Part shown: positions 7,708 to 25,981 of the stretch, piece after piece | Numbering within the stretch: position 1 is the stretch's first letter | How the letters are laid out: the number at the start of each line of letters is the position of its first letter | Source of the DNA: Arthrobacter stackebrandtii | Lineage (GTDB): Bacteria > Actinomycetota > Actinomycetes > Actinomycetales > Micrococcaceae | Reading direction: 5' to 3' | Assembly (NCBI RefSeq): GCF_017876675.1 | Contig: NZ_JAGIOI010000001.1 | Span: 1,488,001 to 1,552,000, forward strand | Length of the DNA stretch: 64,000 nt | Notes under the pieces: generated by a model | The model's input: only the letters and a program-made list of their open reading frames with translations | Databases searched by the model: none | What the model was told of the DNA's origin: nothing | Made by a program: the position numbers and the translations under genes

Positions 7708-7714
7708 TTCTGAC

Positions 7715-11467: not shown

Positions 11468-11622
11468 TACGGTGATCCTTCTCTGGAGGGTGTAGCCGCC
11501 CATGGCGGCATCTTCACAATCTCCACAGTCACGGAATTCCCGGGGATCAACCACACCCCCTCTTGCCTACCCCTGAGAGTAACAGGCGGAATGCTGCCTA
11601 CCCTGCTTCGGTGCCGTTGTCT

Positions 11623-11648
11623 TATCACAAGTACATATCACAAGTACG
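11623..11648. promoter_or_regulatory. tandem 13-bp repeats, candidate operator between efflux pump and regulator
   Basis: TATCACAAGTACA immediately followed by TATCACAAGTACG (11623-11635, 11636-11648), then TATATGTG. The repeats lie in the 256-bp gap between the divergent MFS and XRE genes, about 155 bp from the pump start and 76 bp from the regulator start. Confidence 0.55.
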
Positions 11649-11723
11649 TATATGTGTCTTGACGTTTAGCGTGTCACTGGCAGGGACAGGACATAGACGG
11701 AGAAGACCGGCAGAATGGGGCGC

Positions 11724-12605
11724 ATGAGTAATCTAAGTGAACTTGGGGAGTTCCTTCGTGTCCGAAGAGCTGCCTTACAGCCAGAAGACGTCGGCCTTCT
11801 GAACTACGGCATCCGCCGGGTACCCGGCCTCCGCCGGGAAGAGCTTGCCATGCTTGCCGGAGTCAGCAACACCTACTACACCCGGCTGGAGCAGGGACAA
11901 AGCAACAACGCCTCCGAGGCGGTCATCGATGCCATCGCCCGAGCCCTGAACCTGAACACCGACGAACGCGCGCACCTGTTCAACCTGGCCCGGCCAGGCA
12001 GAACCAAACGGCGGACGCTGACTAAGCCCGATAAGGTACGGCCAGGCACGTTGCGGCTAATCCAGTCAATGTCCAACACACCCGCCGTCGTCTTGGGACG
12101 TCGCAGCGAAGTACTGGCCTGGAACCGGATTGGTCACCGACTCGTCGCTGGTCACTTGGACTTCACTGCCCCGGAAACGCCTACGACGCGGCCTAACATG
12201 ACGCAGCTGCTATTCCTGGACCGTCACACGCGTGAGTTGTACACGCGATGGCTTGAGGAAGCCACACGCGCGGTGTCATCGCTACGGCTGGTAGCGGGCC
12301 GCTCCACCGATGACCCGGCACTCGCTGCGCTGGTCGGTGAACTGACCATGAACAGCGAAGAATTCGCGAACCTGTGGGCACGGCACCCGGTGGAGAACTG
12401 CATGTCGGGGCTGAAGTACATGCACCACCCGGAGGTAGGCGATTTGGTACTGAATTTCGAGGTCCTGACGCCGCCCGATGAATCAGGCCACCGGATCCTC
12501 ATGTACACCGCTGATCCTGGGACACCCGCGATCGAAGCACTGCAGTTGCTCACTTCCAGCGACGCTGGTGTGGCCAGCGAAGCCCAACACCTCGCCGCCA
12601 AGTAG
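11724..12605 (+). CDS. XRE-family regulator with MmyB-like ligand-binding domain
   Basis: 293 aa. The N-terminal HTH_31 helix-turn-helix includes GIRRVPGLRREELAMLAGVS and TYYTRLEQGQ (about residues 23-60). A C-terminal PAS-like MmyB domain follows (about 100-280) with VLAWNRIGHRL and WARHPVENCMSG, the family's characteristic segments. Members often bind lipids or small hydrophobic ligands and regulate adjacent transporters or oxidoreductases. An in-frame ATG three codons earlier (11715) is also possible. Probable regulator of the divergent DHA2 pump. Confidence 0.88.
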   Translation: MSNLSELGEFLRVRRAALQPEDVGLLNYGIRRVPGLRREELAMLAGVSNTYYTRLEQGQSNNASEAVIDAIARALNLNTDERAHLFNLARPGRTKRRTLTKPDKVRPGTLRLIQSMSNTPAVVLGRRSEVLAWNRIGHRLVAGHLDFTAPETPTTRPNMTQLLFLDRHTRELYTRWLEEATRAVSSLRLVAGRSTDDPALAALVGELTMNSEEFANLWARHPVENCMSGLKYMHHPEVGDLVLNFEVLTPPDESGHRILMYTADPGTPAIEALQLLTSSDAGVASEAQHLAAK

Positions 12606-12659
12606 CCGAGGCGCTCCCCCGCCCCTTGCGGTCTCGGTGCTAGGAAGGGCTCCAGGGTC

Positions 12660-12701
12660 AAACTGCCCGCCGACCAACCAATTTGGGTCGGCGGGCAGTT
12701 T
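12660..12701. terminator. terminator after the MmyB-type regulator
   Basis: Perfect 16-bp arms AAACTGCCCGCCGACC / GGTCGGCGGGCAGTTT (12660-12675, 12686-12701) with a 10-nt loop and A/T ends, 55 bp past the stop. Probably works in both directions. Confidence 0.88.
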
Positions 12702-13532
12702 GTGTGTTCCCCTGTATCAGGACAGCTCGTCAGCCGATACATAGGAGGGACAGACAAGATCACTGCACACCAGGTGGCATGGCCCAAAGGACGTAGTGAA
12801 ACCCCTGATGACGTGCGTCGTGCGGGGGCCGAACTGTCCAAAATCTTTGCCTCGATCGACGTGTTCTACGTTGACGGAGCCATCAAGCTGCGGGGTGTCG
12901 AAGAGCGTTCTTCGTTGGGAGGCGACGACAAAAAGACCGTTCCTTTCCCTCTCTCGCACGCCGTGTCGCGCCATCTCTTGGTCTCCATTGACCATTTCCA
13001 TTCCCTGCGGGCATCCCTTCAACTCGCCAATGCGTTGAATACCTATGCCCCCTTCACCTTGCTGCGGGGCAGCCTCGAGGGCGCTACCAATGCCCTGTGG
13101 TTGCTGAAACCCGAACAACGCAATGAGCGGATCACCCGCCATGTACTGGCCTGCCTGGCCGAAGAACCCCCGGCGGAGCCTCGGGGTGATTCGATGGAAT
13201 CGCTCATCGTGCAGTATGGACTCGACCGTTCCAGGGTTCTGGGCGGGATTCCTTCGTTTGGTTCCATCGCCATGACCGAAGACAAGGAGATATGGTGTAA
13301 GGGCGACAATATCGGCGAGCTAGGCTGGCGGATGTGAAGTGGACTGGCTCACGGGCGGGAATGGGCAACCTTGCATGTGCCGCATCGGCAGTTCTTGCGT
13401 GAAGTCGCTATGCGCGTCTCGGAGGTCCGGCTCATGACGGGAATGAGCGACATCGCTGTAATGGCGCAGCTCGCTTACACCATGTTGACGGAGGCGGTGG
13501 CTTTGTTTTCGACCGGTTCAAGCCCCCAATAA
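12702..13532 (+). pseudogene. hypothetical protein gene interrupted by an in-frame TGA
   Basis: One reading frame runs from the end of the terminator to TAA at 13530-13532, broken only by TGA at 13335-13337 (codon 212). After the stop the frame continues coherently: SGLAHGREWATLHVPHRQFL and about 65 codons in all with normal codon use. A single-base nonsense change is therefore more likely than a natural end. The true start is unclear: AGGAGGG at 12742-12748 is a strong ribosome-binding site but no ATG/GTG follows at proper spacing. A GTG lies at about 12772. The product is helical (residues about 80-140) and has no family I recognise. Confidence 0.6.
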
Positions 13533-13540
13533 TGACAGCG

Positions 13541-13643
13541 TAAAAAGAAGGCCCGATCGTGATGTGAACTGCTCCCCGCAAGTCAGAACTGAATTCTCAG
13601 TCCAACTTTCGGGGAGCAGTTCAATGGATCGGACCTTCTTTTA
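13541..13643. repeat. about 103-bp imperfect palindrome, fold-back or MITE-like element
   Basis: The outer arms TAAAAAGAAGGCCCGATC and GATCGGACCTTCTTTTA enclose TGAACTGCTCCCCG and its exact complement. The inner arms resemble the ends of IS3-family elements (TGAACTGC(C/T)CCCC-A-AAGTTGGAC). No transposase lies between them. It could also act as a bidirectional terminator for the flanking convergent genes, since both ends are A/T-rich. Confidence 0.65.
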
Positions 13644-13652
13644 CTTACTTCC

Positions 13653-14840
13653 TTAACTCACTGTAATGGTGGCCTGAGCCGGTTCTGGCTGAACTGGTTT
13701 GGGTCGGGGCCGGGCCCACCGGTCCATGACGGGCTTCTCCACCAAGGCGTACAGGGCCCATCCACCCAACAGCGTCGCCACGAAGAACCCAGCTACCACC
13801 AACCAGGCGACAGGTGTCGTGTACACCTCGTTGCCAAGCAGGATGCGGCCGTAGAAGATCACCACGCCCTGGCACAGGTAGAAGCCGAAGGAGATGTTCC
13901 CCAACCAGACCATGGGTTTGGATCCGAGGAAGCCAGTTCGCCCGGCAATGTCTCGGGTCGCCACGGTGCAGATGGTCGCCGCGACAGGGATGATGGTGGC
14001 CACGTTGAAGGAGTACACGAACGGGACAACCATCGCTGCGGCATATCCGGCGACGCACAGGACGAGGATGTGCCACAGCTTCAAAGGAACCCAGCGCCCG
14101 GACAGGACGATCCGGGCCAAGATAGAGCCAAGAATGAATTCGATCAGACGGGCGGGCGGAAAGATATACCCGAACCAGAACTGCGCCTCGGAGATCGGCG
14201 TCAGGGCCGAAACAGGTGTTGCGGGGATCAGGTAGGTGGTGACCAGTTGAACGGCGATCATCGCAGCGACCATGATCCACACCCAAGCCCAGAGCCGGGT
14301 GCCGGGAATCTTCCGGATGGGGACCATCAGCAGCGGGAACAGCATGTAGAAGAGCAGTTCGCTGTTCAGGGTCCATGACGGTGGGTTCACCGCTACGTAG
14401 ACGGCGGCGTCAGGGATGAACGAGTTCACCAGGAATAGGTTGCTGATCCAGCCAAGCGGTGGGTTGATGGCGGCTGCGAACAGGATCATCGACAGCACCC
14501 ACATGACCAAATGGTTGGGGAAGATCTTCAGTAGCCGGCGGCGCCAGAATTGTCGCTTCGGTTCGCCGGGTTTGGATGCCCAAGCCAGCAGGAAACCGCT
14601 CAGGACGAAGAAGAATGAGACACCGACGTACCCTGCCTTACTGACCAGCCATTCCAGGGTGGATCCGAGCTCCGCATCTGCAAACGGATTGATGGGGTCG
14701 TTGGGCGGGATGGGTGAGTTGGACAAGGTGATGTGGAAGAAAAACACCAGCAGCGCGGCGAAGAACCGCAGCCCGGTCAGGGAGGGCAATTTACTGAGGC
14801 GGGGACGGGCGGTGGTAGCTTCGGGGACTGGGGCGGTCAT
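13653..14840 (-). CDS. acyltransferase 3 family membrane protein (OafA-like)
   Basis: 395 aa with about 10 hydrophobic helices. It opens with LPSLTGLRFFAALLVFFFHI, which carries the family's R-x-x-A-x-x-x-V-x-x-x-H signature, followed by YVGVSFFFVLSGFLLAW. Such enzymes O-acylate sugars, peptidoglycan or macrolides at the membrane. It is the last gene of the left cluster operon and its ATG overlaps the upstream stop by four bases. In context it would decorate a sugar-containing product or envelope glycan; the acceptor is unknown. Confidence 0.88.
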   Translation of the reverse strand: MTAPVPEATTARPRLSKLPSLTGLRFFAALLVFFFHITLSNSPIPPNDPINPFADAELGSTLEWLVSKAGYVGVSFFFVLSGFLLAWASKPGEPKRQFWRRRLLKIFPNHLVMWVLSMILFAAAINPPLGWISNLFLVNSFIPDAAVYVAVNPPSWTLNSELLFYMLFPLLMVPIRKIPGTRLWAWVWIMVAAMIAVQLVTTYLIPATPVSALTPISEAQFWFGYIFPPARLIEFILGSILARIVLSGRWVPLKLWHILVLCVAGYAAAMVVPFVYSFNVATIIPVAATICTVATRDIAGRTGFLGSKPMVWLGNISFGFYLCQGVVIFYGRILLGNEVYTTPVAWLVVAGFFVATLLGGWALYALVEKPVMDRWARPRPKPVQPEPAQATITVS

Positions 14841-16534
14841 GAGGCACTGCCTGTCGGGAGTTCGATGCCGAGGCTGTGGGTGAAGTAGTTGGTTGGATCC
14901 CAGCTGGCCTTGGCGCGTTGGAGCCGGGGGTAGTTTCCCTTGAAATAGAGGGTCTGCCAGCCAACACCTGAGCTGTTGTGATCGGAGTTGGCTACATCGA
15001 CGTCCGGGTAGTTGATGTAGCAGCCATCCAGTTGATCTCCGGGGACGGGGACGCCGCCGGTGTTTTTGAACATGCCTTCGTAGGTTTCCCGCTCCCAGCG
15101 AAGGTAGAAGTCGTCGTCGGCGGCTTCCGGCCAGAATGTTTGGAGGCAGAATTTGAAGGCCGACTGCCGTTGGGCGTTGGCTGTGGCATCCTGGGCGACG
15201 GCGTTGACCTGGCCGCCGAAGGAGAACAGGACCAGCATGGTGTTCGGGTTGGTGAAGTCGGGCCGGGTCATCTGGCGGTAGAGTACCGCGATCTGGTCAT
15301 CGGTGAACTTCTGGTTCAGGTATGCCGATTTGTGGGCGCCGCGGCTGGTGGGGTTGGTGATGACCGGATTGTCGGTCCCCACCAGGCGGGTCGCTTGCAG
15401 CCATGGGATTTCCCGGGTCTTGAAAAACTCCGGCATAGCCGGGATTTCCCCGTTGGGCTTCTCCACGGGTTCGGCGGTGATGGCGACCCCGTCAAGGACG
15501 GCCGCCACATAGCGTTCCATGACGCCCTTGGCGTCCGGGGATGCTGCGTCTATCTGAGTGAACATTCCCAGACTTCCGTGGGCCTTGGAACTGACGTTGA
15601 ACAGGCTGCTCAGATGCGATTCCGGGGTGCCAGGTTGGCGGTACTTTTCGTGCCATGCTCCGAAGTTGGTCATGAGGCGCCGGAACGATGTTTCGTCCAG
15701 TTGGTCCCAAGGGAGGGAGATGGCGCTCACCAGCACGGTGGAGGGGGCTTTGACGAGTTGTTCGGAAGGGTTCTTTCCTTGGGCGCCCGGGGACCGGAAC
15801 CAGTATTTGGTGACGATGCCCCAGTTCCCGCCGCCCCCGCCGGTGTGCGCCCACCACAGGTCACCGAGCTCGCCTTTGTCGTCCCGTGTTGCTGTGACGG
15901 TGCGGACTCTACGGCGGGCGTCCACGGTCACAACTTCAACGGCGTAGAGGTGGTCCACGACCAGTCCGTGTGAGCGTGACAGCAGGCCGTAGCCGCCGCC
16001 GGCGATGTGGCCGCCGGCACCGACGCTGTAGCAGATACCTCCTGGAACTGTGACGCCCCAGTTCTTGTAGAGGGTTTCGTAGACGTTCATCAGTCGCGCG
16101 CCGGGCTCCACCGCGAAGGCGCCCATCTTTTTGTCGTAGTAGACCGCGTTCATCGGGGACACGTCGAGGATGACCTGGACGGATGGGTTGCAGACGAAAT
16201 CAGCGAAGCAGTGCCCGCCGCTTCGTACAGAGACTTTCTTTCCGGTGCGCACCGCTTCTCGGACCGCGGCCTCGGCGTCCTTTGTGCTCGTGATGAGCCG
16301 GACGTAATCCGGGTTGGAGACGAAGCGCTGGTTGTTGCCCGTCATCAGGTCCATGTAACGGGAGTCCCCGGATTTGATGACGGAGCCGTCAGGGACAACG
16401 GCCGAACCGGAGGCCGCATGGGCTTCCGGGGCGTTGGCTGTCCCGATGGCGGCCAATGAAGCTGCCGCGAGAGTGCCTACTGAGCCAGCCATGAAAAACC
16501 TACGGCCGACACCGTTCTTTTCGGTGGTCGTCAT
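14837..16534 (-). CDS. Tat-exported BBE-type FAD-linked oxidase
   Basis: 565 aa. The N-terminus has a twin-arginine motif (GVGRRFFMAGS) and a hydrophobic stretch ending near AHAASG, so export of the folded flavoprotein is expected. A FAD_binding_4 domain follows (about residues 65-250). Both covalent FAD anchors of the berberine-bridge/GOOX class are visible: the His of VRSGGHC and the Cys of PGGICYSVGAGGHIAGGG. The BBE C-terminal motif WDPTNYFTHSLGI is present. Relatives oxidise oligosaccharides, hexoses or alkaloids with O2. Overlaps both neighbours by ATGA junctions. Confidence 0.9.
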   Translation of the reverse strand: MTTTEKNGVGRRFFMAGSVGTLAAASLAAIGTANAPEAHAASGSAVVPDGSVIKSGDSRYMDLMTGNNQRFVSNPDYVRLITSTKDAEAAVREAVRTGKKVSVRSGGHCFADFVCNPSVQVILDVSPMNAVYYDKKMGAFAVEPGARLMNVYETLYKNWGVTVPGGICYSVGAGGHIAGGGYGLLSRSHGLVVDHLYAVEVVTVDARRRVRTVTATRDDKGELGDLWWAHTGGGGGNWGIVTKYWFRSPGAQGKNPSEQLVKAPSTVLVSAISLPWDQLDETSFRRLMTNFGAWHEKYRQPGTPESHLSSLFNVSSKAHGSLGMFTQIDAASPDAKGVMERYVAAVLDGVAITAEPVEKPNGEIPAMPEFFKTREIPWLQATRLVGTDNPVITNPTSRGAHKSAYLNQKFTDDQIAVLYRQMTRPDFTNPNTMLVLFSFGGQVNAVAQDATANAQRQSAFKFCLQTFWPEAADDDFYLRWERETYEGMFKNTGGVPVPGDQLDGCYINYPDVDVANSDHNSSGVGWQTLYFKGNYPRLQRAKASWDPTNYFTHSLGIELPTGSAS

Positions 16535-17805
16535 GAGTTGGCTCCTTCACGTTGGACGGTGTTGTTCGGGTGCAGGGTGATTTCGGCTCGGGGAGCAACG
16601 AAGTAGTGCTGGACCGAGTAGGAAATGGTCGCGAAGTCTTCCACACCGCGGCCGGTAAAGTCCCCGGCGACAATCCGAGCGATGGACTCCCCGGAGACCT
16701 TCCATTTCAAGAACAAACCCTTGGCCAGGTCAACGGCCTTGTAGTAATATGCGCCTTGCCACGGTTCGGGACCTCGCAGTCCGATGAGAAATTCGTCGTC
16801 GCCGTCACCGTCGAAGTCACGGCACATGACGGTGTGGCCGGGCCCTTCGCCGTTCTCGTTTGGGTCCCCGTAAATATCGAGCAGGTGCCGGGTCCAGCCG
16901 GTAGCTTGGGTGTCTCCGCCGCTGCGAACATACACTGCCACGGTGTTGCCGTGGAAGGGTTCGATGGCAGCGACGTAGGCCAGCGGGTCTTCGCCCACCC
17001 GTCCGCCGTCGACGTCACCACTGCCTTTAAAGGTTGTTTTCTCGAACTGGCTTTCCTCGCCGTCGCCGATATGCTCCCACGCCCAAGCGAGGTTGTCCTG
17101 GTCGTAGTAGAGCCAGGTGATACCTTCATCGGAGGCCATGAGGATCGAATCCAACGGTGACCCGGGGATGAGTCCACCCTTTTTCGCGACGCCGTGGATC
17201 ATGCGGAAGTCCGAATCACTGATGAGTTCCTTATCCCATTCGGCGCGGGGGTCATTGGTGGGGGTGAACAGCACCACGGGCAGGACTGCGTGGACGTCTT
17301 CGACGGCGACGATGGGGAATCCGATGATCTGGACTTTGTCGGTGCGGGTGAAATGGCCGACCCGCAGGCGGTGCATGCCGATGGCACGCCCTACGTAATG
17401 CCTTTTCCAGTTCTCGGTGGTTTCAGACGGGTTGCCGGGGTTTTCGAGCCAGTCGATCTTTCCGCCTTCAGGATCGGCGTGGTGGATGGTGCCGCCGGGA
17501 CCGTACAGCTGGTAGCAGACGACCAGGTCGGTGGTCCCGTCACCGGTGATGTCACCGAAGTCCATGCCGACGGGTTCCTTGATTTTGTCGAGCACAAGCT
17601 TCTTTTCCCAAGTGGGGTTCTTGTACCAGTAGATTTCTCCAACTTTGAGGCCGTAGCCGACCAGGTCGGGTTTGCCGTCCCCGTCGATGTCAGCGGCTTC
17701 GAGCCAGTACCCATCGCGGAGGAAGTCCGTCACGGTTTCGGTGCCGAACACTGGTTCGGTGACATCCACCGATGGTGTGGTTTTGGGCAGTGCCGGGGAG
17801 GTCAT
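16531..17805 (-). CDS. VCBS/FG-GAP beta-propeller protein, aldos-2-ulose dehydratase-like
   Basis: 424 aa without a signal peptide. Repeated Ca-binding-type loops are visible: DIDGDGKPDLVGYG, DITGDGTTDLVV, DFDGDGDDEFLIG and DFTGRGVEDFATIS, as in seven-bladed FG-GAP propellers. Other conserved-looking segments are YGPGGTIHHAD, GKIDWLENPG, HYVGRAIGMHRL and FRMIHG. From memory these resemble the propeller domain of fungal aldos-2-ulose (pyranosone) dehydratase, a Zn/Mg enzyme acting on glucosone and 1,5-anhydrofructose. Here the propeller would be a separate polypeptide. The domain class is sure; the dehydratase relation is a hypothesis. Confidence 0.7.
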   Translation of the reverse strand: MTSPALPKTTPSVDVTEPVFGTETVTDFLRDGYWLEAADIDGDGKPDLVGYGLKVGEIYWYKNPTWEKKLVLDKIKEPVGMDFGDITGDGTTDLVVCYQLYGPGGTIHHADPEGGKIDWLENPGNPSETTENWKRHYVGRAIGMHRLRVGHFTRTDKVQIIGFPIVAVEDVHAVLPVVLFTPTNDPRAEWDKELISDSDFRMIHGVAKKGGLIPGSPLDSILMASDEGITWLYYDQDNLAWAWEHIGDGEESQFEKTTFKGSGDVDGGRVGEDPLAYVAAIEPFHGNTVAVYVRSGGDTQATGWTRHLLDIYGDPNENGEGPGHTVMCRDFDGDGDDEFLIGLRGPEPWQGAYYYKAVDLAKGLFLKWKVSGESIARIVAGDFTGRGVEDFATISYSVQHYFVAPRAEITLHPNNTVQREGANS

Positions 17806-19034
17806 GAGTAAGCCTTTCGTGTCAGTTCGGTTGCATGTGGTACCGTTTCCGGCGTGCCGGACGGCCCGGTGGGTTGGTTTCGACGCAGCAGCAGCGATGC
17901 CGTGCCCATGAGGGCGACAGCGGTGACGGCCAGGGCTGCGCCCACCCAGATGGGGGAGGCCAGGCCGAGCCCTGCTGCGATAGTGGTACCGCCGAGGTAG
18001 GCGCCGATGGCGTTGCCGAGGTTGAACGCGGAGATGTTGACGCCGGAGGCCAGCGTTGGGGCCTTGTGGGCGAACGACAGGACGCGTGTCTGCATTCCGG
18101 GCACTGCGGCGAACCCGACGGCGCCGAGGAGGAACAACGTCACGGCCGAGCCTGCGGGGCTGTGGACGGTGAGAGTGAACGCCGACAGCACAATGGTCAG
18201 GGCCGACAGCAGGACAAGCAAGGATTTATCTAGGTTCCCATCTGCGGTTTTTCCGCCGATGATGTTTCCGGTGAAGAGGCCGGCGCCGAAGATCACCAGC
18301 ATCCATGCGACGGCGTCCGGCGGCAACCCGGCCAGTGATGTCAGCATGGGCGCGATATAGGTGAACGCGCCGAACATGGCTCCGAAGCCGAAGACTGTGA
18401 CCAGGATGGACAGCCACACCTGACCGGATGTGAAAGCTCCGAGTTCCCGGCGGAGCTGGCCGGGGCCGCGTTCGGCTGCGTCCTTTGCCGGGACGTAGGC
18501 GATCAGCCCGGCCAAGGCGATGACCCCGACGATGGTGATGGCCCAGAACGTGGAACGCCAGCCCAATTGCTGGCCCAGGAATGTCCCCAACGGGACGCCG
18601 AGGACATTCGCGATGGTCAGCCCGGCGAACATGACCGAGATTGCCCTGGCCTTACGGTCTGAGGCAACCAGGTTCGAGGCCAGCACGGCACCGATTCCGA
18701 AGAATGCTCCGTGGCAGAGGGCGGCAACCACCCTGCCGAAAAACATGGTGGCGTAATCCCCTGAGACCGCCGAGAGAAGGTTTCCGACGATGAAGAGCAC
18801 CATCAGCGCGCACAGGACTGTCTTGGGGCGGAGGGCCGCCGTCGCTGCAGTCACCACGACGCCACCGACGGCGACACTGAGCGCGTAGCCGGAAACCAGG
18901 TGCCCGGCAACTGGGATGCTGACAGCGAAGTCCGCGGCTACCTCCGGCAGCAGACCCAGGATGACAAACTCGGTCAGGCCGATGCCGAACCCTCCTACTG
19001 CGAGGGCAAGCAGGCCCAACGGCATCCTGGTCAT
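17802..19034 (-). CDS. MFS exporter, DHA1 family (AraJ/Cml-like)
   Basis: 410 aa with about 12 hydrophobic helices. It begins LGLLALAVGGFGIGLTEFVILGLLPEVAADF, a typical DHA1 helix 1 with the T-E-F motif of the AraJ/NepI/chloramphenicol-resistance group. The central loop (AAERGPGQLRRELGA) separates two six-helix halves. Members export arabinose, purine ribosides, chloramphenicol or related small polar molecules. Start and stop overlap both neighbours by four bases. In the cluster it is the natural exporter of the product. Confidence 0.87.
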   Translation of the reverse strand: MTRMPLGLLALAVGGFGIGLTEFVILGLLPEVAADFAVSIPVAGHLVSGYALSVAVGGVVVTAATAALRPKTVLCALMVLFIVGNLLSAVSGDYATMFFGRVVAALCHGAFFGIGAVLASNLVASDRKARAISVMFAGLTIANVLGVPLGTFLGQQLGWRSTFWAITIVGVIALAGLIAYVPAKDAAERGPGQLRRELGAFTSGQVWLSILVTVFGFGAMFGAFTYIAPMLTSLAGLPPDAVAWMLVIFGAGLFTGNIIGGKTADGNLDKSLLVLLSALTIVLSAFTLTVHSPAGSAVTLFLLGAVGFAAVPGMQTRVLSFAHKAPTLASGVNISAFNLGNAIGAYLGGTTIAAGLGLASPIWVGAALAVTAVALMGTASLLLRRNQPTGPSGTPETVPHATELTRKAYS

Positions 19035-20212
19035 GCCGCTGATCGTGCTGTAGCAGGCACGAAATCTGCGCCCGGAACGAAGGGCATTGCGGCCGGGCCC
19101 ATCCGGAAATAGTGTGCGACGGCGGCGATGGTGCGTTCGGTGGCTTTGCCGTCACCGTAGGGGTTGATTGCGGTCGCCATCTCCATGTAGGCATTCGGAT
19201 CATCGAGCAGGCGTTCGACTTCGTGGACGATTTGGCCACGGTTGCGGCTGACCAGACGCGAACTGCCGGTCAGGATCGATTCGCTGCGTTCGGTGATTTC
19301 CCGTAGCACCAGGGTGGGTTTCCCCAAGGCGGGGCCTTCTTCTTCGGCTCCTGAGCTGTCTGAGAGGATCAGGTCGCTGCGCTGGAGCAGCTTGCAGAAA
19401 CTCAAGTACGGAAGCGGGTCAACCATGTCCACGTTGGGAATCCCAGCCAGGGCAGGGACCATGACTTCACGGACTTTCGGGTTCAAGTGCAGCGGGACGA
19501 CGATGCGCGCATCCTCCCGACGCCGGGCTATGTCGGCCAATGCTGCAGCGATCTCCCTCATCGGCCGGCCGTGGCTTTCACGCCGGTGGGTGGTGGACAA
19601 GATCACTTTGCGGGGATCATCGTCCAGATCCGCCAGGGCCGGTTCCCCGTACCCGCCAAGGTTGTTCATTCCCCATTGCAGCGCATCGACGATGGTGTTC
19701 CCGGTGACAACGATCGAATGTTCCCGGACTCCTTCGCGGATCAGGTTGGCACTGTTGCCCGGGGTCGGGGCCAGATGCAGGGCCGCGATCTGCGCCACGA
19801 GCTTCCGGTTCACTTCTTCAGGGAACGGCGAGTTGTTGTTGCCGCTCCGGAGACCGGCTTCGACGTGAATGATGGGGACGGAGCGGTGCAATGCTGCCAG
19901 TGCACCGGCGAGTGTGGTAGCCGTGTCTCCATGGACCATGACGGCATCCAGGCCTTCCATATGATCTCCGGCGCACAGCCCCTCAAGAATCCGGTGGGTC
20001 ACTTGTGAGAGGGTCTGTTGTTCTTTCATGATGCGCAGTTCAACGTCAGGGGTGATGCCGAACTCCTCCAGCGTGCTGTCAAGCATTTCGCGGTGCTGGC
20101 CGGTGGAAATCAGGACCGGGCGGAACCTGGAGTCCTGGATCAGGGCGTGGATGATGGGGGCGAACTTCACAGCTTCGGGGCGTGTACCGAAGACGATTCC
20201 AATGGTTTTCAT
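19031..20212 (-). CDS. wecB: UDP-N-acetylglucosamine 2-epimerase (non-hydrolysing)
   Basis: 393 aa, usual length for the family (about 375-390). It opens MKTIGIVFGTRPEAVKFAP with the diagnostic GTRPEAIK-type motif. Other expected segments are HGDTATTLAGALAA, HVEAGLRSG, TTHRRES and SDSSGAEEEGP. It interconverts UDP-GlcNAc and UDP-ManNAc in the cytosol, with UDP-GlcNAc also acting as allosteric activator. AGAGAGAAGCC precedes the ATG. Because it lies in the left cluster operon, it probably supplies an amino-sugar nucleotide to this pathway; a role in teichoic-acid linkage synthesis is the alternative. Confidence 0.94.
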   Translation of the reverse strand: MKTIGIVFGTRPEAVKFAPIIHALIQDSRFRPVLISTGQHREMLDSTLEEFGITPDVELRIMKEQQTLSQVTHRILEGLCAGDHMEGLDAVMVHGDTATTLAGALAALHRSVPIIHVEAGLRSGNNNSPFPEEVNRKLVAQIAALHLAPTPGNSANLIREGVREHSIVVTGNTIVDALQWGMNNLGGYGEPALADLDDDPRKVILSTTHRRESHGRPMREIAAALADIARRREDARIVVPLHLNPKVREVMVPALAGIPNVDMVDPLPYLSFCKLLQRSDLILSDSSGAEEEGPALGKPTLVLREITERSESILTGSSRLVSRNRGQIVHEVERLLDDPNAYMEMATAINPYGDGKATERTIAAVAHYFRMGPAAMPFVPGADFVPATARSAA

Positions 20213-20241
20213 GGCTTCTCTCTTGAAAATGGGCGAAAAGG

Positions 20242-20265
20242 ACCTGCCGGTTGTGACCGGCAGGT
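20242..20265 (-). terminator. intercistronic hairpin upstream of wecB
   Basis: Perfect 10-bp arms ACCTGCCGGT / ACCGGCAGGT with a 4-nt loop. On the minus strand it is followed by CCTTTTCG. It lies between the cupin-like gene and wecB, so it may terminate part of the transcripts or stabilise an mRNA end. Confidence 0.6.
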
Positions 20266-20279
20266 GTGGAACGGAGTGA

Positions 20280-20969
20280 TTAGCTGAGGTGGTATTCCAA
20301 AGCGAGCCAGATACAGTCTGTGTCGGCCCGGTATTGGTGCCACGGGTAGACGAACGTACCCTCTCGTTCCAGACAGAACGGCACAGGGTTGGTGTTGCCG
20401 GGGCTCAACTGCTGGTCCTCATACAAGGTGGCATGCTCCGGTGACGTGAATTTCTGCATATGGCCGAGCCCGGCAATCTGGGTATGGACCTCAATGAAGT
20501 CATGCCGGTTGTGAATTCCGCAGTCTGTTCCTGCGGGGCTGAACCACAAGTTTGCCTTCACGGCGAACGACTTTTCTCCCGGTTCGAGACCGGGCTGGCG
20601 GAGCACAACGGCGGGATCCAGTTGGACTGTGCCGATGGTGTGCTGCGCCGAACGGAGAAGGACCGGATGTCCGGGTCGGCCACCATAAAAGTCGACCCAG
20701 CCGAGATCCCTGGCGATTTGTTCAGCGTTCGGGATCGTCTCCAGAGAGAGTACGGCGAGCAGAGCTCCCGTGATGGTGCCGCCGTAAAGGACAGTGGAGC
20801 TGAAGGTAGGCAATGCCGATGACTGTCCGTGACCTACCAACGCGTCGCTACTTGCGAGGTTCACTACGACGACTGGTCCTGCAACCTCGTATTGCTGCAC
20901 GTCTCGCAGCACAAGAGCATGAGCCAGTTGGCTGCTAAAGGGCAGTTCTTCCAATAGGACAGTTTCCAC
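20280..20969 (-). CDS. cupin-like protein of the cluster, function unknown
   Basis: 229 aa. A GTG at 20969 follows GGAGGTAATT with ideal spacing and is preferred over the TTG at 20981. The C-terminal third carries His/Glu clusters of cupin type: CGIHNRHDFIEVHTQIAG, GNTNPVPFC and YPWHQYRADTDCIWLALEYH. From memory these resemble the cupin part of aldos-2-ulose dehydratase, whose propeller part would be encoded at 16531-17805. First gene of the left operon. No signal peptide. The family call is tentative; it could equally be an unrelated sugar-binding or isomerase cupin. Confidence 0.5.
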   Translation of the reverse strand: METVLLEELPFSSQLAHALVLRDVQQYEVAGPVVVVNLASSDALVGHGQSSALPTFSSTVLYGGTITGALLAVLSLETIPNAEQIARDLGWVDFYGGRPGHPVLLRSAQHTIGTVQLDPAVVLRQPGLEPGEKSFAVKANLWFSPAGTDCGIHNRHDFIEVHTQIAGLGHMQKFTSPEHATLYEDQQLSPGNTNPVPFCLEREGTFVYPWHQYRADTDCIWLALEYHLS

Positions 20970-21085
20970 AATTACCTCCAAGGTTCATCACTCAATCTTC
21001 GTGTGCTTACGGAGCGGCACAAAGAAGTGGGACGGTGCGAAACCTTCGATAGGCCACCACGCTGTCCCACTAGAGCAAGTATTGG

Positions 21086-21127
21086 CAGTGCCAGGCAAAG
21101 TTATCCACCCCCTGTCAGTGCTAGGCA
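21086..21127. promoter_or_regulatory. 12-bp direct repeats in the divergent cluster promoter
   Basis: CAGTGCCAGGCA (21086-21097) and CAGTGCTAGGCA (21116-21127) differ by one base and are exactly 30 bp apart. They lie in the 203-bp gap between the two divergent operons of the cluster. Candidate binding site for a shared regulator, which is not encoded in the cluster itself. Confidence 0.45.
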
Positions 21128-21172
21128 GAACAGGGACAGGCGCGGGTCGGCTCTGGAGTGAAGGATGAAAGC

Positions 21173-22018
21173 ATGACTTCAGATACTTCTGCACGGCCCG
21201 GGGCCGCGTACCGCCGCGAAAATCGGCCGAGTGTCCCCTGGACGGACATGTTTGTGCAGGGCGCGGACGGTAAGGACATCCGGGTGCGCGTTTATGAACC
21301 CGCAGCCCGCCCGTCCGTAACATTGGTCTGGGCCCACGGCGGCAGCTGGACCCGGGGTTCGATCGAAGGCTGGCACGAAGCGTGCGCCGCTTTGGCATCC
21401 CTTGGCACGGCTCGGATCGTCAGCGTGGGCTATCGGCTTGCACCCCGATGGCTGCACCCGACCGCCGTCATGGACATCGCTGCAGCAACCCTTTGGGCAC
21501 AGAAGAACTACTCTCACTCAATCTTCATCGGCGGTGACAGCGCCGGTGGAACCCTGGCCGCTGGCGTCGCCCTCTGGTTCCGGGACAACGGGCTCGACCT
21601 AGACGGGCAAATCCTTGCCTACCCGCCGTTGGATCCCGAATGCACCGCAGACTCCTACAGGGAATCCAGATCTTTCCCGCCCCGTTCACTGCTGCTCGAT
21701 GCGTGGGGCGAGTACGTCGGCTCGGACACGGAGCTTCGCGGACGGCTGTACCTTTCACCGCTGCACGCCGGCAAACTCTCCGGGCTCTGTCCGGTCTCGC
21801 TCATTGTTGGCTCCACTGACCCGGTGCGCGACGACGTCGAACATTTCGTGAAGCGTCTGGCAGCATCTTCGGTTCCTGTCGAACTGGAGATAAGCCCGGC
21901 TGTCGCTCACGGACACTTTCTGGACAGTTCACCGACGAACCCGGTTCACCGGTGGATCCACACCCGCTTGAGCAATCCGGACCAACCACCCGCTACGACA
22001 GATGGAGAAACGAAATGA
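21173..22018 (+). CDS. alpha/beta hydrolase, hormone-sensitive-lipase-like
   Basis: 281 aa. The oxyanion-hole HGG motif (WAHGGSWTRG, about residue 52), nucleophile elbow GGDSAGG (about 119-125), an acid in GSTDPVRDD and catalytic His in VAHGHFLDS form a complete HSL-family triad. It hydrolyses small esters or acyl groups and is cytosolic. ATG at 21173 has AGGA 7 bp upstream; the longer frame from 21158 lacks one. First gene of the right operon, overlapping the next gene by four bases. Possibly removes an acyl group added to the pathway product. Confidence 0.88.
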   Translation: MTSDTSARPGAAYRRENRPSVPWTDMFVQGADGKDIRVRVYEPAARPSVTLVWAHGGSWTRGSIEGWHEACAALASLGTARIVSVGYRLAPRWLHPTAVMDIAAATLWAQKNYSHSIFIGGDSAGGTLAAGVALWFRDNGLDLDGQILAYPPLDPECTADSYRESRSFPPRSLLLDAWGEYVGSDTELRGRLYLSPLHAGKLSGLCPVSLIVGSTDPVRDDVEHFVKRLAASSVPVELEISPAVAHGHFLDSSPTNPVHRWIHTRLSNPDQPPATTDGETK

Positions 22019-22536
22019 GCACGATAACCAGCCCGGACGCTGCCTACACCAAGGCGTTGCTGCGGCACTTCTCCGACCTCCGCGACGGAACACACGGAGA
22101 AGCCGTAAGCCGACAGGACAAAGAAGACCTGTTCCGTGCCGCAGCTGACCTGTTGGAACCGTACGCACGCCAAGCCCTCAACGAAGTAAACGAGGTGCTC
22201 ATGCTAGGTCAAGGAACTGTGGAATCATCCGGGATTGGCCGCTCGCCAGACACCGGCCTGATCTACTCCTGGACGCTCGGATGGGCCGAACAGCGCGCTG
22301 CTGGCATCCCTCCAATTACCATTCATGCCTACTACGGCCGTGGATTCCATCACCCACATCTGAGGGGCGGGACGGTCAAGGAATGGCCGTTGAATGTTTT
22401 CACCCCCGAACAAGCAGCGCAGGAGTTGCCCATCCTTCGAGCCATAGCCTCCGCCGAAATCCACAACCTCGTCTTCCTGTCCGACTTCACCATCGTGCCC
22501 TCATCCAAGCCCGGCACCACCACCTCGACACGATGA
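22015..22536 (+). CDS. conserved-looking protein of unknown function
   Basis: 173 aa. No membrane segment or signal. An N-terminal helical half is followed by a His-rich segment HAYYGRGFHHPHLRGGTVKEWPLNVF (about residues 103-128) that could bind a metal, and FLSDFTIVPS near the end. ATG overlaps the hydrolase stop (ATGA), and its own stop overlaps the next ATG. It is therefore made together with the hydrolase and the flavin enzyme. I do not recognise a family. Confidence 0.75.
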   Translation: MSTITSPDAAYTKALLRHFSDLRDGTHGEAVSRQDKEDLFRAAADLLEPYARQALNEVNEVLMLGQGTVESSGIGRSPDTGLIYSWTLGWAEQRAAGIPPITIHAYYGRGFHHPHLRGGTVKEWPLNVFTPEQAAQELPILRAIASAEIHNLVFLSDFTIVPSSKPGTTTSTR

Positions 22537-23522
22537 GACTCTCAATCCTGGACCAATCCCCCATCGCTACAGGCAAAAGCAAAGCCGAGGCACTGCGCGA
22601 AACCATCGCCTTGGCCCGCGCGGCCGAGGAAGAGGGCTACCACCGTTTCTGGCTCGCCGAACACCACGACTCCCCCGGCTTTGCCGGCACCACCCCTTCG
22701 CTGATGGCACTGGCCGTTTTGGAGGCAACCACCATGATCACCGTCGGCTCCGGCGGCGTCTTGCTGGGCCTGCACGAACCCTGGCAGGTTGCCGAAGCCT
22801 TCGAGATCCTTGCAGCCCTCCATCCCGGCCGGGTGAACCTCGGCGTCGGCCGAGCAGGGAGCGGTGGGACAGGCACCTTCAACGAAAAGGTCATCGAACT
22901 GCAAGCCCGTCTCGGCCTGGTGCCCGGAACGAGAGAGCGGGAGGACCTGGATATTTGGTTGCTGGGGGCCGGCACCGGCTCAGCGCCTCTTGCCGCCGCC
23001 ACCGGATCAGGCTATGCCCACGCCCACTTCCTCAACACCGGAAGCGCCAGGACCGCACTTGCCCACTACCGGAAGAATTTTCAGGCCGGTACGGTGCGTC
23101 GCGAACCCGAAACCCTTCTCGCGGTCCGCGTCATTGCCGCCACCACCGACGCTCAGGCACATGAACTCGCGAACCCGGTCCGGCTCTGGAGGGCACGAAA
23201 AGACCTGGGCCGGGACGAACCCTTCCCGGTCAGCACCAACCCTGCGAACTGGTCCTCCGAGGAAATCCGCCGTAGTGAAAACACCGAAGCCCGTCTGATC
23301 GTGGGGGCCGCGGACGACATCGCACTCCAGCTCTCAGACCTGGCCGATGAACTGGACGTCGAAGAACTGATGATCAGTACCCCAGTGCCGCGACTGGTGG
23401 ACCGCATCAACTCCAACCGACTCCTCGCCCGTGCCGTGGCCCGGCTGTTCCCGGCAGACGAGAGCGCCATCGCAGGAAAGGACAAACCAAAGAATGCATC
23501 CCCTCGTTTCAGCCATTCATGA
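22533..23522 (+). CDS. LLM-class flavin-dependent oxidoreductase
   Basis: 329 aa. It begins MRLSILDQSPIATGKS, the standard start of the MsnO8/YceB-like subgroup of luciferase-like monooxygenases. FWLAEHHDSPGFAGTTPSL, VGSGGVLL and PGRVNLGVGRAGSGG follow, with the His pair and glycine loop that hold FMN. Such enzymes use FMNH2 and O2 to oxidise aldehydes, ketones or small heterocycles. Coupled to the upstream gene by ATGA and overlaps the next by 29 bp. In the cluster it is a second oxidative enzyme beside the exported flavoprotein. Confidence 0.9.
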   Translation: MRLSILDQSPIATGKSKAEALRETIALARAAEEEGYHRFWLAEHHDSPGFAGTTPSLMALAVLEATTMITVGSGGVLLGLHEPWQVAEAFEILAALHPGRVNLGVGRAGSGGTGTFNEKVIELQARLGLVPGTREREDLDIWLLGAGTGSAPLAAATGSGYAHAHFLNTGSARTALAHYRKNFQAGTVRREPETLLAVRVIAATTDAQAHELANPVRLWRARKDLGRDEPFPVSTNPANWSSEEIRRSENTEARLIVGAADDIALQLSDLADELDVEELMISTPVPRLVDRINSNRLLARAVARLFPADESAIAGKDKPKNASPRFSHS

Positions 23523-24372
23523 CCTTGCCAGGCACGACCCGGGCAAAGCTTCCCTTCGGTGGAAATGCAATGACTTCCCTTACGCAGCGGTAGACAGACA
23601 GATCAACACCCTCGCCCTAGCGATGCAGCTCAAAGGAGTACGGGCTGGTGAGATTGTTGCCTTCGAAGCCTCCTCTGGCCCGGATTCCGTCGTCTCAATG
23701 GCAGCGCTCTGGGCGCTCGGAGCCGCCGGGTTTCCAATCCGGTCAGTTGCTGGGGGACCTTTGCCCGCCCATGCGGTCCTTGCGGGGGCCACCGGATTTC
23801 TCCACCCCGAAGGCAATTACATCAAATCCGCCGCGCCCGGGCACGAACCACCTGTCCCCGCTTCATTGTGGCTGCACACCGGAATTGGAACCCGGGCGAC
23901 AGTCGTAGACCACCATCACTTCAACGAGGTGCTGGAAGGGGCTGAAAAGAAGTTCAGCCTCTCATCCCGAACGGTGCTTGGACTAACAGACATCGCGCAG
24001 CCCGGCTCGATGCTCGACCTGTGGGCGGTTCTGGCCGCCGGCGGAACAGTCGACCTCCTCAACGACTACGAAACACTGCCAAGCGATTGTCTGCTGCAAC
24101 ACCTACGCGAGACAGGAGCGGACCTACTCATTGCCCATCCAGCACTTCCTGAACGGCTCAGCGACACCCCCGGTGCCGTGTTCACACAGTTCCGCGACGT
24201 AGTGGTTCTCGAAGGCTTCGACCTCCAATCCCGCACCACACTTGCGAACGCCTTCCCGTGCTCCATCTTCCACCTGTGGGACTCCTCAACCGATATTGAG
24301 GGCATGTCTGATGACTCACCCTCTGACTTTGTCGACGGTACTAACTACAAAATTAAGGACCCTCATGCGTAA
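23494..24372 (+). CDS. AMP-binding (ANL) enzyme-like protein, shortened and lacking core motifs
   Basis: 292 aa, against about 500 for functional ANL enzymes. The N-terminal fold matches: YAAVDRQINTLALAMQLKGVRAGEIVAFEA, then a segment like the SMAALWALGAAGFPI helix. However, the P-loop (TSGTTG-type) is replaced by WLHTGIGTRATVVDHHHF, the aromatic-TE motif by HLWDSSTDIEG, and the C-terminal domain with its catalytic lysine is absent. It starts inside the upstream gene with GGAAAGGAC upstream of the ATG. It may be a non-catalytic binding protein or a decayed ligase, but expression signals are intact. Confidence 0.6.
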   Translation: MHPLVSAIHDLARHDPGKASLRWKCNDFPYAAVDRQINTLALAMQLKGVRAGEIVAFEASSGPDSVVSMAALWALGAAGFPIRSVAGGPLPAHAVLAGATGFLHPEGNYIKSAAPGHEPPVPASLWLHTGIGTRATVVDHHHFNEVLEGAEKKFSLSSRTVLGLTDIAQPGSMLDLWAVLAAGGTVDLLNDYETLPSDCLLQHLRETGADLLIAHPALPERLSDTPGAVFTQFRDVVVLEGFDLQSRTTLANAFPCSIFHLWDSSTDIEGMSDDSPSDFVDGTNYKIKDPHA

Positions 24373-25261
24373 AGCAGTTATTCCAGCGGCCGGTCTCGGA
24401 ACACGATTCCTTCCAGCAACCAAAGCCATGCCGAAAGAAATGCTCCCTGTCGTGGACAAGCCCGCAATCCAGTACGTCGTAGAAGAAGCAGTCAGGGCAG
24501 GGCTGACCGACGTCGTTATGATCACCGGACGTAACAAACGTGCCCTGGAAGATCACTTCGACCGTGAGCCCTTCCTTGAACAAATCCTTGAGTCCAAGGG
24601 CGATCTTGCTAAGCTGGCCGCCGTCCAAGAATCCTCGTCACTGGTCGATCTGCACTACCTGCGCCAAGGCGACCCGAAAGGCCTAGGGCATGCCGTCCTG
24701 CGGGCCCGGGCTCATGTCGGCAATGAACCTTTCGCTGTACTCCTCGGGGATGACCTCATTGACGAGCAAGACAGTATCCTCGACGACATGGCCCGTGTCC
24801 AGGAGCTCACCGGCGGCTCGGTGGTGGCGCTGATGGAGGTCGAGCCGGAACAGATCAGTGTCTACGGTTGCGCCGATGTTGTCTCCAGCGAGGTTGACGG
24901 GTCTCTCAGGATCCGTGGCCTCGTTGAAAAACCCGAGCCCATCCATGCTCCCTCGAACCTCGCCATCATCGGCCGCTACGTCCTGCACCCGCGCATCTTT
25001 GATGTCCTGGATCAAACCCCGCCAGGGCGTGGAGGGGAAATTCAGCTAACGGATGCCCTGCAAACCCTGGCAGTCTCCGAAGGTGAGGGCTCCGGCGTGT
25101 ACGGCGTGATCTTCAGAGGCCGCCGCTTCGACACCGGCGACAAGCTGAGCTACCTCAAAGCCGTGATGACGGTCGCCTTGGAACGCGGGGACACAGGCCC
25201 CGCGCTACGGGAATGGCTCGAAGAAGTAAGGACCCCGGCCCGACAGTCCGCAGATGCTTGA
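24365..25261 (+). CDS. galU: UTP-glucose-1-phosphate uridylyltransferase
   Basis: 298 aa. The nucleotidyltransferase signature AVIPAAGLGTRFLPATKAMPKEMLPV opens the protein. DKPAIQYVVEEA, LRQGDPKGLGHAVL, VLLGDDL and GLVEKP follow in the order found in GalU. It makes UDP-glucose from UTP and glucose-1-phosphate. It overlaps the previous gene and ends the right operon, so with WecB it suggests that a nucleotide sugar is a precursor of the cluster's product. A second, housekeeping copy may exist elsewhere in the genome. Confidence 0.94.
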   Translation: MRKAVIPAAGLGTRFLPATKAMPKEMLPVVDKPAIQYVVEEAVRAGLTDVVMITGRNKRALEDHFDREPFLEQILESKGDLAKLAAVQESSSLVDLHYLRQGDPKGLGHAVLRARAHVGNEPFAVLLGDDLIDEQDSILDDMARVQELTGGSVVALMEVEPEQISVYGCADVVSSEVDGSLRIRGLVEKPEPIHAPSNLAIIGRYVLHPRIFDVLDQTPPGRGGEIQLTDALQTLAVSEGEGSGVYGVIFRGRRFDTGDKLSYLKAVMTVALERGDTGPALREWLEEVRTPARQSADA

Positions 25262-25432: not shown

Positions 25433-25981
25433 CTAACCCTTGTGGTTCCACCGGGTGTTGACGGGTGGTTTGGCCGGCGGGATTTTCTTGGCCAGGGAAA
25501 GCTTTTCCAGCTCGCCGGCCAGGCGGAGGATCTCGCATTGAAGGTGGGCCGGTTTGATCCTTTTGAAAGCGGCGTTCATGGTGATAGCCGGCCGTTTGCG
25601 CATTGTTGGGTGTTTGATGGCGCGTTGGTGCGGGGTCGCTGGAACGTCGTAGCGGTTGATGACCTTGGCCCCGTAGCGCAGCTTGGAAACCAGTTCTTGC
25701 TGGGGCAGCAGGTAGTTCGTGAAGACCCGGTCCAGATCCCAAATCTCGTTGAGCGTGGCCAGCTCCGCCGGGGTGTCATAGCGCAGGTACCCGATCACTT
25801 CGCGGACCCTGGCCCAGTTCTTTTGCACCACATGGGGGCTATCATTTTTGTTGTACGGCCGAGACCGGGTGAACGTGATCTTGTGTTCTTCGCAATACCT
25901 GAAGAGGTGGTCGTTGATGAACTCACTTCCGTTGTCCGAGTCAATCCCGATGATCGGGAACGGAAATACGACCATCACCAT
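25433..25981 (-). mobile_element. 3' fragment of an integrase-core (rve) transposase
   Basis: The minus-strand frame carries IIGIDSDNGSEFINDHLF (second Asp of the DDE triad with the D-N-G-x-E-F context), RSRPYNKNDSPHVVQKNW (third acidic position altered: SPHVVQ where VEQ is usual) and RVFTNYLLPQQELVSK. This is the C-terminal half of a DDE transposase of the IS481-like/unclassified actinobacterial type. The N-terminal DNA-binding part and first Asp are missing, so it cannot transpose. The break at about 25981 coincides with the end of an IS3-like remnant. Confidence 0.75.

Follow-up and report, generated by a model that had tools for sequence, protein, structure and literature searches.

A mobile gene cluster of Arthrobacter stackebrandtii with a putative split aldos-2-ulose dehydratase-like enzyme and its possible role in synthesis of a sugar-derived metabolite

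What does a compact set of sugar-related genes make, if it contains no polyketide synthase or nonribosomal peptide synthetase core? The question is raised by a locus within a 64,000-nucleotide stretch of Arthrobacter stackebrandtii DNA (hereafter, the window), in which an initial annotation had recognized two divergent, tightly coupled operons at positions 13653-25261. The left operon was said to encode a cupin-like protein, WecB, an exporter, a propeller protein, a flavin adenine dinucleotide (FAD) oxidase and an acyltransferase, and the right one a hydrolase, a conserved unknown protein, an LLM flavin enzyme, an AMP-binding-like protein and GalU. All eleven genes were confirmed as open frames in the orientation given, and both operons are present. 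The analysis described below leads us to propose, with a probability of about one half, that the locus is a mobile cluster for the biosynthesis of a small, secreted compound derived from a sugar, with a split aldos-2-ulose dehydratase (AUDH)-like enzyme at its center and a separable protection module as a supplement.

The initial annotation rightly saw a sugar-related gene set but overlooked its most informative chemical clue, a pair of AUDH-like proteins. The product of the gene at 16531..17805 (minus strand), which had been labeled a VCBS propeller, is an AUDH-type β-propeller, i.e., the N-terminal domain of AUDH encoded as a separate protein; it matches Pfam family PF22301 (AUDH_beta_propeller) at 6e-54, above the cut-off. 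In a single-sequence search of the PDB, AUDH of Phanerochaete chrysosporium (4a7k) was the sole match at E ≤ 1 (8.8e-70), and with a 12-sequence profile it was again the sole match at E ≤ 0.001 (8.9e-90, 402 profile positions). The homology runs along residues 10-430 of the 4a7k chain.

The neighboring cupin protein (20280..20981, minus strand; the start is uncertain, with TTG as listed) probably contains two cupin domains, and AUDH_Cupin (PF18637) is the one Pfam family that it matches at E ≤ 1. The same family is the sole match at this threshold in all 14 aligned cupin members, that of the window included (best 7e-6). An AlphaFold2 model based on 13 sequences had a pLDDT of 81, and Foldseek matched it to two-cupin proteins, for example BacB and oxalate decarboxylase, with E values of 2e-7 and up and TM-scores of at most 0.35. 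Residues His157, His160, Glu164, His166 and His215 are invariant in 11 aligned sequences, five of which are alphaproteobacterial, and such a set would fit a metal cupin. The Pfam matches appear to tie the cupin protein to AUDH weakly but consistently.

AUDH, which dehydrates 1,5-anhydrofructose or glucosone, belongs to the fungal anhydrofructose/microthecin and cortalcerone pathways and occurs in fungi that produce sugar-derived antibiotics. Its propeller and cupins are joined in one chain of ca. 900 residues that ends in a C-terminal lectin domain, whereas in the window propeller and cupin are encoded by two genes, which are separate in all 15 loci that have both, and a Pfam scan of the window proteins found no lectin domain. 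The glucan lyase and pyranose oxidase of the fungal pathways are likewise not among the cluster genes; WecB and an oxidase of the BBE family are there instead. Judged by sequence, the left operon thus encodes a putative split AUDH-like pair, beside a WecB of a divergent clade, a secreted-type FAD oxidase and an acyltransferase. By-eye inspection revealed no export signal in either the propeller or the cupin protein. AUDH is mentioned in the available parts of PMC8023676, PMC11650716 and PMC4795551.

Is this combination of genes more than a local accident? The propeller protein served as the only query in a single scan of a genome collection; the 12 loci retrieved, out of a truly larger range, represent five genera (Arthrobacter, Promicromonospora, Antribacter, Curtobacterium and Cryobacterium). 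The initial annotation had suggested looking for the same gene order in other genomes, and each of the 12 loci was found to contain the core genes in one and the same order, namely cupin, WecB, propeller, FAD oxidase, acyltransferase. Since the search was made with the propeller only, the set is not a chance assembly, though the window and loci L009 and L020, as well as the Cryobacterium loci L015 and L017, are near-copies, so that the 12 loci do not represent 12 independent events. A DHA1-type exporter accompanies this core in ten loci (it is absent from L015 and L017), an MmyB-type regulator in ten and a DHA2-type exporter in 11 of the 12; the contig of L010 ends before the regulator and DHA2 genes, and no regulator was seen in L016. 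The interval 13653-25261 was therefore too narrow, as the regulator (11724-12605, plus strand) and the DHA2 exporter (9995-11467, minus strand) belong to the cluster. The view of a compact, conserved, sugar-related set that lacks a classical core enzyme and includes exporters and an oxidase with a Tat-type (twin-arginine translocation) N-terminus is supported. The initial annotation knew of no described cluster with this gene set, and none was named among the matches listed in searches of open-licence papers, where absence is weak evidence.

The claim that nearly every gene junction is an ATGA-type overlap holds for overlap as such (eight of nine junctions) but not for its type (six of nine). 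In the left operon, four of five junctions are 4-base ATGA-type overlaps and a 67-base gap separates the cupin and WecB genes; in the right operon, two of four are 4-base overlaps and the other two junctions are overlaps of 29 and 8 bases.

The cluster is rare, mobile and conserved beyond vertical descent. In the genus, the count was 1 of 23 genomes; in the family, a propeller match was obtained in 5 of 395 genomes, in one of them over 79 residues only; PF22301 was detected in 3 of 396 genomes of the phylum (two above the cut-off), and the cupin profile in 1 of 396, the A. stackebrandtii genome being included in each of these counts. In a tree of WecB sequences, the Curtobacterium copy (Microbacteriaceae) groups with two from Promicromonosporaceae (support 100/99) and not with those of Cryobacterium, also Microbacteriaceae; it follows that the cassette moves. 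These genes are also found, differently arranged, on two linear plasmids of Streptomyces, together with galU, an SDR-family gene, a sigma factor gene and a gene named streptomycin biosynthesis regulator. When flanking genes were compared, the only genes beyond the cluster that were shared, among the matches listed, were common to L015 and L017 or to the two Streptomyces plasmids; this comparison relied on crude longest-frame picks, and further apparent sharing came from wrong-frame picks inside the cluster. Within the window, the G+C content at ca. 8-28 kb is 0.59-0.63, compared to 0.63-0.69 in the remaining part, and at the right border, just right of GalU and outside the proposed pathway, a transposase remnant with an integrase core is located (25433..25981, minus strand; Pfam rve 4e-4, below the cut-off).

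The second unusual protein of the core is WecB (19031..20212, minus strand), a divergent member of the UDP-sugar 2-epimerase family (TIGR00236, 1e-120; 403 bits against a cut-off of 210). As noted initially, the locus has nucleotide-sugar genes, and both are second copies: the other WecB of the genome is 49% identical to the cluster one, and the other GalU is 72% identical. The 15 cluster WecBs, near-copies among them, form one clade (support 100/100); because of long-branch warnings on the KasQ, Escherichia coli and Vibrio rows, only the unity of this clade and its inner branching are used here. When 120 genomes from the family were searched, the nearer WecBs, which make up 65 rows at E ≤ 1e-98 with the window's own excluded, were 45-50% identical, and further matches are more distant. 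The references for residue comparison comprised 32 sequences: WecBs from 28 of 29 loci (L031, without a literal GTRPE start, was left out), the second WecB of the genome and three PDB sequences.

The catalytic Asp/Glu/Glu/His residues and the allosteric Gln-His residues are invariant in all 15 cluster copies, and Lys16, Asp96, Glu118, Glu132, His209, Ser286, Glu291, Glu292, Glu308 and Arg309 are unchanged in each of them. Substitutions G287S, in the phosphate loop, and A293G are present in 15/15 cluster copies and 0/32 references, so that the loop motif reads SSG in all cluster WecBs and SGG in all references. Gln290 is replaced by Glu in 13 of the 15 copies, and Pro310, which follows the substrate-binding arginine and is kept in 31 of 32 references, is Ser, Cys or Gln in every cluster copy. 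The loop SGGxQEEA has become SSGAEEEG in 13 copies and SSGSQEEG in two identical Streptomyces copies. KasQ is a WecB-type enzyme of kasugamycin biosynthesis that releases 2-acetamidoglucal and UDP; its Ser286 and Gly287 touch the phosphates, and Glu291 and Arg309 are its proposed acid dyad (available text of PMC8869731). Active-site roles were cross-checked with a second enzyme (PMC10622841, in part). The cluster WecB shares with KasQ and other WecB enzymes the family, the catalytic and allosteric residues and a place in a natural-product cluster, but forms a separate clade.

What sugar would such an enzyme take? UDP-N-acetylglucosamine (UDP-GlcNAc) is favored by WecB ancestry. UDP-glucose, in turn, is favored because the window contains a second copy of GalU (24365..25261, plus strand; TIGR01099, above the cut-off) and galU also lies near the cores on the Streptomyces plasmids. 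AUDH chemistry requires a 2-ketone, which tautomerization of an enol would give, and for this reason we lean towards UDP-glucose as the likelier substrate. The excerpted text of PMC12441222 describes 2-hydroxyglucal as the enol of 1,5-anhydrofructose, a compound that fungi convert to ascopyrone and microthecin.

The FAD oxidase (14837..16534, minus strand; Pfam FAD_binding_4 and BBE) is of the bicovalent type. Its nearest PDB relative is TamL (8e-151), followed by AknOx, the putative hexose oxidase 2wdw, CrmK and GilR, with N-acetyl-D-hexosamine oxidase at 2e-72. To the antibiotic-tailoring enzymes TamL, AknOx, CrmK and GilR it is homologous over nearly its whole length, with both FAD-anchor motifs, but it differs from them by a Tat-like N-terminus and quite different partner genes. 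Motifs SGGHC and GGICYSVG, which we take to be the His and Cys FAD anchors, and an N-terminal twin arginine, presumably a Tat export signal, are present in 14 of 15 oxidase copies. The oxidase therefore looks Tat-exported. The exception is L019 of Antribacter gilvus, where the oxidase gene (11203-12380) is broken and partly inverted, or else misassembled. The plasmid of Streptomyces sp. NBC_01022 (L067, 11004-14480) encodes an additional FAD oxidase that shares 49% identity with the one of the cluster; its neighbors are genes for an FAD monooxygenase and a hept-6-ulosonate synthase, and this region is possibly another biosynthetic cluster.

The last gene of the left operon codes for a membrane acyltransferase (13653..14840, minus strand; Acyl_transf_3, PF01757, 6e-31), which is present in 12/12 loci; in Cryobacterium sp. 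MLB-32 (L016, 6586-7736) it is split into two frames, or the assembly is in error. The operon also encodes the DHA1-type MFS exporter (17802..19034, minus strand), a Cmx/CmrA/AraJ-like protein that matches NCBIfam cmx_cmrA at 2e-100, below the cut-off. The DHA2-type exporter (MFS2; Pfam MFS_1 3e-57; best NCBIfam match LmrA/EmrB, below the cut-off) is 66% identical to its counterparts in the two Streptomyces plasmid loci.

The right operon behaves differently. It opens with three genes: an HSL-type α/β hydrolase (21173..22018, plus strand; Abhydrolase_3 6e-43), which resembles chloramphenicol hydrolase and LipP1 (NCBIfam LipP1 and CHL_hydrolase, both below the cut-off); a conserved protein of unknown family, UNK (22015..22536, plus strand), with no Pfam match at E ≤ 1 and no NCBIfam match at E ≤ 0.01; and an MsnO8-family LLM flavin enzyme (22533..23522, plus strand; TIGR03558 5e-83, above the cut-off). 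A search of the PDB with UNK returned nothing meaningful, and its AlphaFold2 model (7 sequences, mean pLDDT 54) was not used. The initial annotation had treated the two operons as a fixed pair that jointly makes one product. As can be seen from the 12 loci, the trio adjoins the core in six, the AMP-binding-like gene in three and GalU in two; in L016, the contig starts only a short distance before the cupin gene. UNK is present in 8 of 13 core-bearing genomes and was not found in the other five, the completeness of which is not stated. In 11 loci that were read, UNK adjoins the hydrolase in ten and the LLM enzyme in nine; a transposase gene occupies the expected LLM place in one Streptomyces locus (L068). 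On one Streptomyces plasmid, the trio is located ca. 55 kb from the core.

The trio also occurs without biosynthetic genes. Plasmid NZ_CP097150.1 of Deinococcus sp. QL22 carries, within 5.9 kb (L069, 2552-8433), the regulator (55% identity), the DHA2 exporter (66%), the hydrolase (46%), the DHA1 exporter (60%), UNK (51%) and the LLM enzyme (42%). No matches to the cupin, WecB, propeller, oxidase or acyltransferase were found in the 14.5 kb of this plasmid that were read, and searches of a plasmid collection with the propeller and the cupin gave no Deinococcus record. Because the trio can be separated from the core and travels with the exporters and the regulator in Deinococcus, we ascribe to the right operon a putative function in resistance or detoxification: the hydrolase, UNK and the LLM enzyme, together with the pumps, are probably a protection module that some producers carry and that a non-producer can acquire. 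The hydrolase and the DHA1 pump resemble chloramphenicol hydrolase and Cmx/CmrA, respectively, below the curated cut-offs. In place of two operons with a joint product, we would thus distinguish a biosynthetic and a protection module within a real, conserved and mobile cluster, whose putative chemistry is constrained by homology.

The fourth gene of the right operon (23494..24372, plus strand) had been called AMP-binding-like. Its 292-residue product is a partial, fast-diverging homologue (40-67% identity), whose match to the AMP-binding family (4e-10) is confined to two stretches, the better one at residues 13-84. A functional adenylating enzyme is doubtful here: the matching stretches are short and the gene is the least conserved one, so the product is probably not a working enzyme of this kind.

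MmyB-type (MLTR) regulators adjoining MFS exporters are a general pattern. In the window, the XRE/MmyB-type transcription regulator (Pfam MLTR_LBD, PF17765, 3e-52), which has a ligand-binding domain, and the DHA2 exporter form the same divergent pair with a palindrome between them, the operator-like site CGTGTCACTGGCAGGGACAGG (11670..11690). It has one mismatch to the consensus CCTGTCACTGNCAGKGACAGG and is the best match in the window. Here, a related operator-like site, CCTAGCACTGACAGGGGGTGGAT (21103..21125, minus strand), which ends in GTGGAT, additionally precedes the biosynthetic operon, in front of the cupin gene; it has two mismatches to the cupin-promoter consensus and is also the best in the window. 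Both consensuses, the 21-base CCTGTCACTGNCAGKGACAGG and the 23-base cupin-promoter one, were drawn from these same loci, and mismatch numbers of 1 and 2 at the own promoters compare with a best of 5-6 in five random 64-kb sequences. With the 23-base consensus, no place in the window matches better than the two promoters; with the 21-base consensus, the cupin site has 5 mismatches, which is not better than two places elsewhere or than chance.

A 16-base core, CCTRTCACTGNCAGKG, is found with at most one mismatch at these two places only in the whole 4.43 Mb genome; at up to two mismatches there are 44 places, versus 26 for the reversed pattern. When the window and the 12 loci are considered, the core (≤1 mismatch) precedes the cupin gene in 11 of 13, with L011 and L016 as exceptions, and lies in the regulator-exporter gap in 9 of the 11 loci that have both genes, the exceptions being L015 and L017. 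In L011, an additional place of this kind lies outside the two promoters. The regulator-exporter gap of Deinococcus contains the core at one mismatch, and in the Streptomyces loci, which are without this regulator, the core is nowhere found under three mismatches.

One can envisage the following pathway. UDP-hexose would be supplied by GalU, where present, or by housekeeping metabolism. Elimination of UDP by the variant WecB would yield a glycal, which would be 2-hydroxyglucal if UDP-glucose is the substrate and 2-acetamidoglucal if it is UDP-GlcNAc. The propeller and cupin proteins may then dehydrate or isomerize this glycal and so form an enone or a dihydropyranone of the kind represented by ascopyrone and microthecin. 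The dehydrated product could be carried out of the cell by the MFS pumps, oxidized at a ring alcohol outside the cell by the Tat-exported FAD oxidase, and acylated by the membrane acyltransferase. The MmyB-type regulator is expected to govern both transcription units via the related palindromic operators, and the hydrolase, UNK and the LLM enzyme may shield the producer by deacylating or reducing re-entering product. A biosynthetic function is supported by AUDH being the only PDB relative of the propeller and AUDH_Cupin the sole Pfam family of the aligned cupins (14/14), by the core in 12/12 loci and its genes on the two Streptomyces plasmids, the WecB loop change in 15/15 copies with catalytic residues kept, the precedent of glycal release by KasQ and the nearness of the oxidase to antibiotic-tailoring ones. 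The shared operator-like sites, the Deinococcus cassette and the occurrence of cupin and propeller relatives in other sugar loci lend it further support.

The most specific form of this proposal, in which the WecB variant is a UDP-glucose (or UDP-GlcNAc) lyase that lets the glycal go without adding UDP back and so opens a bacterial nucleotide-sugar entry to anhydrofructose, and the split AUDH makes a pyranone antibiotic finished outside by the secreted oxidase, is less likely than not and is put forward tentatively. According to the available part of PMC12441222, 1,5-anhydrofructose is formed by glycoside lyases and, as a by-product, by glycosidases, and its route in E. coli is undefined. A glycal-releasing enzyme of the WecB type would give a 1,5-anhydrofructose pathway not based on glycoside lyases, within a new kind of small-molecule cluster without a classical core enzyme. 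Such clusters would define a family of sugar-derived metabolites that detectors based on core enzymes likely miss, and the portable protection module could mark both producers and resistant neighbors.

Relatives of the two AUDH-like proteins occur in other sugar loci. Cupin relatives are encoded on 28 plasmids, 26 of them non-Streptomyces and mostly rhizobial, with 38-42% identity in 18 such rows among the matches listed. Five annotated alphaproteobacterial cupin loci (L061-L065, ca. 9970-13600) all contain sugar isomerase-like and sugar-transporter genes; GMC oxidoreductases are annotated in four, and a Gfo/Idh/MocA enzyme is encoded one gene from the cupin in two, while the Rhizobium etli locus has a "putative dehydrogenase" and a "putative oxidoreductase" at matching places. 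One more such locus carries no annotation. The one Gfo/Idh/MocA enzyme tested, from Rhizobium sophoriradicis, gave just two PDB matches at ≤1e-20, both to 1,5-anhydro-D-fructose reductase (2glx, 1e-34; 4koa, 1e-32), a modest similarity. Rhizobial catabolism of 1,5-anhydrofructose by a reductase of this kind is described in the available part of PMC12441222. The cupin relatives lie near such a reductase-like gene, but in contrast to the window cluster their loci have an ATP-binding cassette sugar importer, and neither a propeller nor a WecB or BBE oxidase was seen in the parts that were read. These loci may represent a branch of anhydrosugar or ketosugar catabolism that is as yet undescribed. 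The propeller relative on a Persicobacter plasmid (L023, 8423-17941) stands in a block with a GMC-type oxidoreductase, a ferritin-like protein and a glycogen debranching enzyme: it is downstream of the GMC sugar-dehydrogenase-like gene (6a2u, 1e-60), with two genes between, the ferritin-like one and one more, and directly before the debranching enzyme gene.

A number of results weigh against a biosynthetic cluster built on AUDH chemistry. The match of the window cupin to AUDH_Cupin (0.0043) is below the cut-off, 4a7k is not among the best 50 of 1551 fold matches to the cupin model, and cupin sequence searches of the PDB gave nothing meaningful and no AUDH (4a7k) cupins. None of the four alphaproteobacterial cupins scanned had a Pfam match at E ≤ 0.01, and the rhizobial loci, in which no propeller was seen in the stretches read, look catabolic. 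As far as the accessible text of PMC8869731 goes, KasQ binds UDP-glucose yet yields no 2-hydroxyglucal from it, and GalU lies beside the core in two of 12 loci. A GH31-family match occurs once in the genome, outside the window (model positions 207-328), and a glucan lyase could supply anhydrofructose instead. Finally, within 7 kb of the UNK gene of Nonomuraea (L070), neither such a hydrolase nor such an LLM enzyme is encoded.

WecB may also act as a normal epimerase that forms UDP-N-acetylmannosamine (or free N-acetylmannosamine), with the AUDH-like pair acting on an oxidized amino sugar and no anhydrofructose chemistry involved. Such an amino-sugar pathway is a real if lesser possibility: the cluster WecB scores far above the TIGR00236 cut-off and keeps the catalytic and allosteric residues, N-acetyl-D-hexosamine oxidase is among the relatives of the FAD oxidase, and KasQ provides a precedent for a WecB within an antibiotic cluster (PMC8869731, in part). 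However, the oxidase looks exported while the propeller and cupin proteins lack an export signal by eye, the cluster WecBs form a separate clade with an altered phosphate loop, and no further common gene, such as one for a glycosyltransferase, appeared among the matches listed in the crude flank comparison.

Breakdown of an environmental anhydrosugar or antibiotic by the cluster is unlikely. It would agree with the cupin relatives in alphaproteobacterial sugar-uptake loci and with the likeness of the hydrolase and pumps to resistance genes (below the cut-off), but the core is not accompanied by a conserved sugar importer, the resistance-like genes stand without the core in Deinococcus, and production is the better fit for a locus with a pair of exporters, an oxidase of exported type, an acyltransferase and additional copies of nucleotide-sugar genes. 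Least probable, and very improbable overall, is decoration of a wall polymer by WecB, GalU and the acyltransferase. Genes of these three kinds (wecB, galU and Acyl_transf_3) are frequent in surface-glycan loci, but neither glycosyltransferase, flippase nor polymerase is among the genes seen to be common to the 12 loci, and AUDH and TamL-type enzymes work on small molecules.

Remaining features of the window can be described briefly. A scan for sigma-70 promoters was uninformative (2 sites versus 3.4 expected). A gene at 12702-13337, which codes for an unknown protein and sits between the regulator and the operon, was considered as a cluster member and rejected, as it was found in 1 of 12 loci. 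Near the left border, at 7661-8494, a MerR-type regulator with a TipAS antibiotic-recognition domain is encoded.

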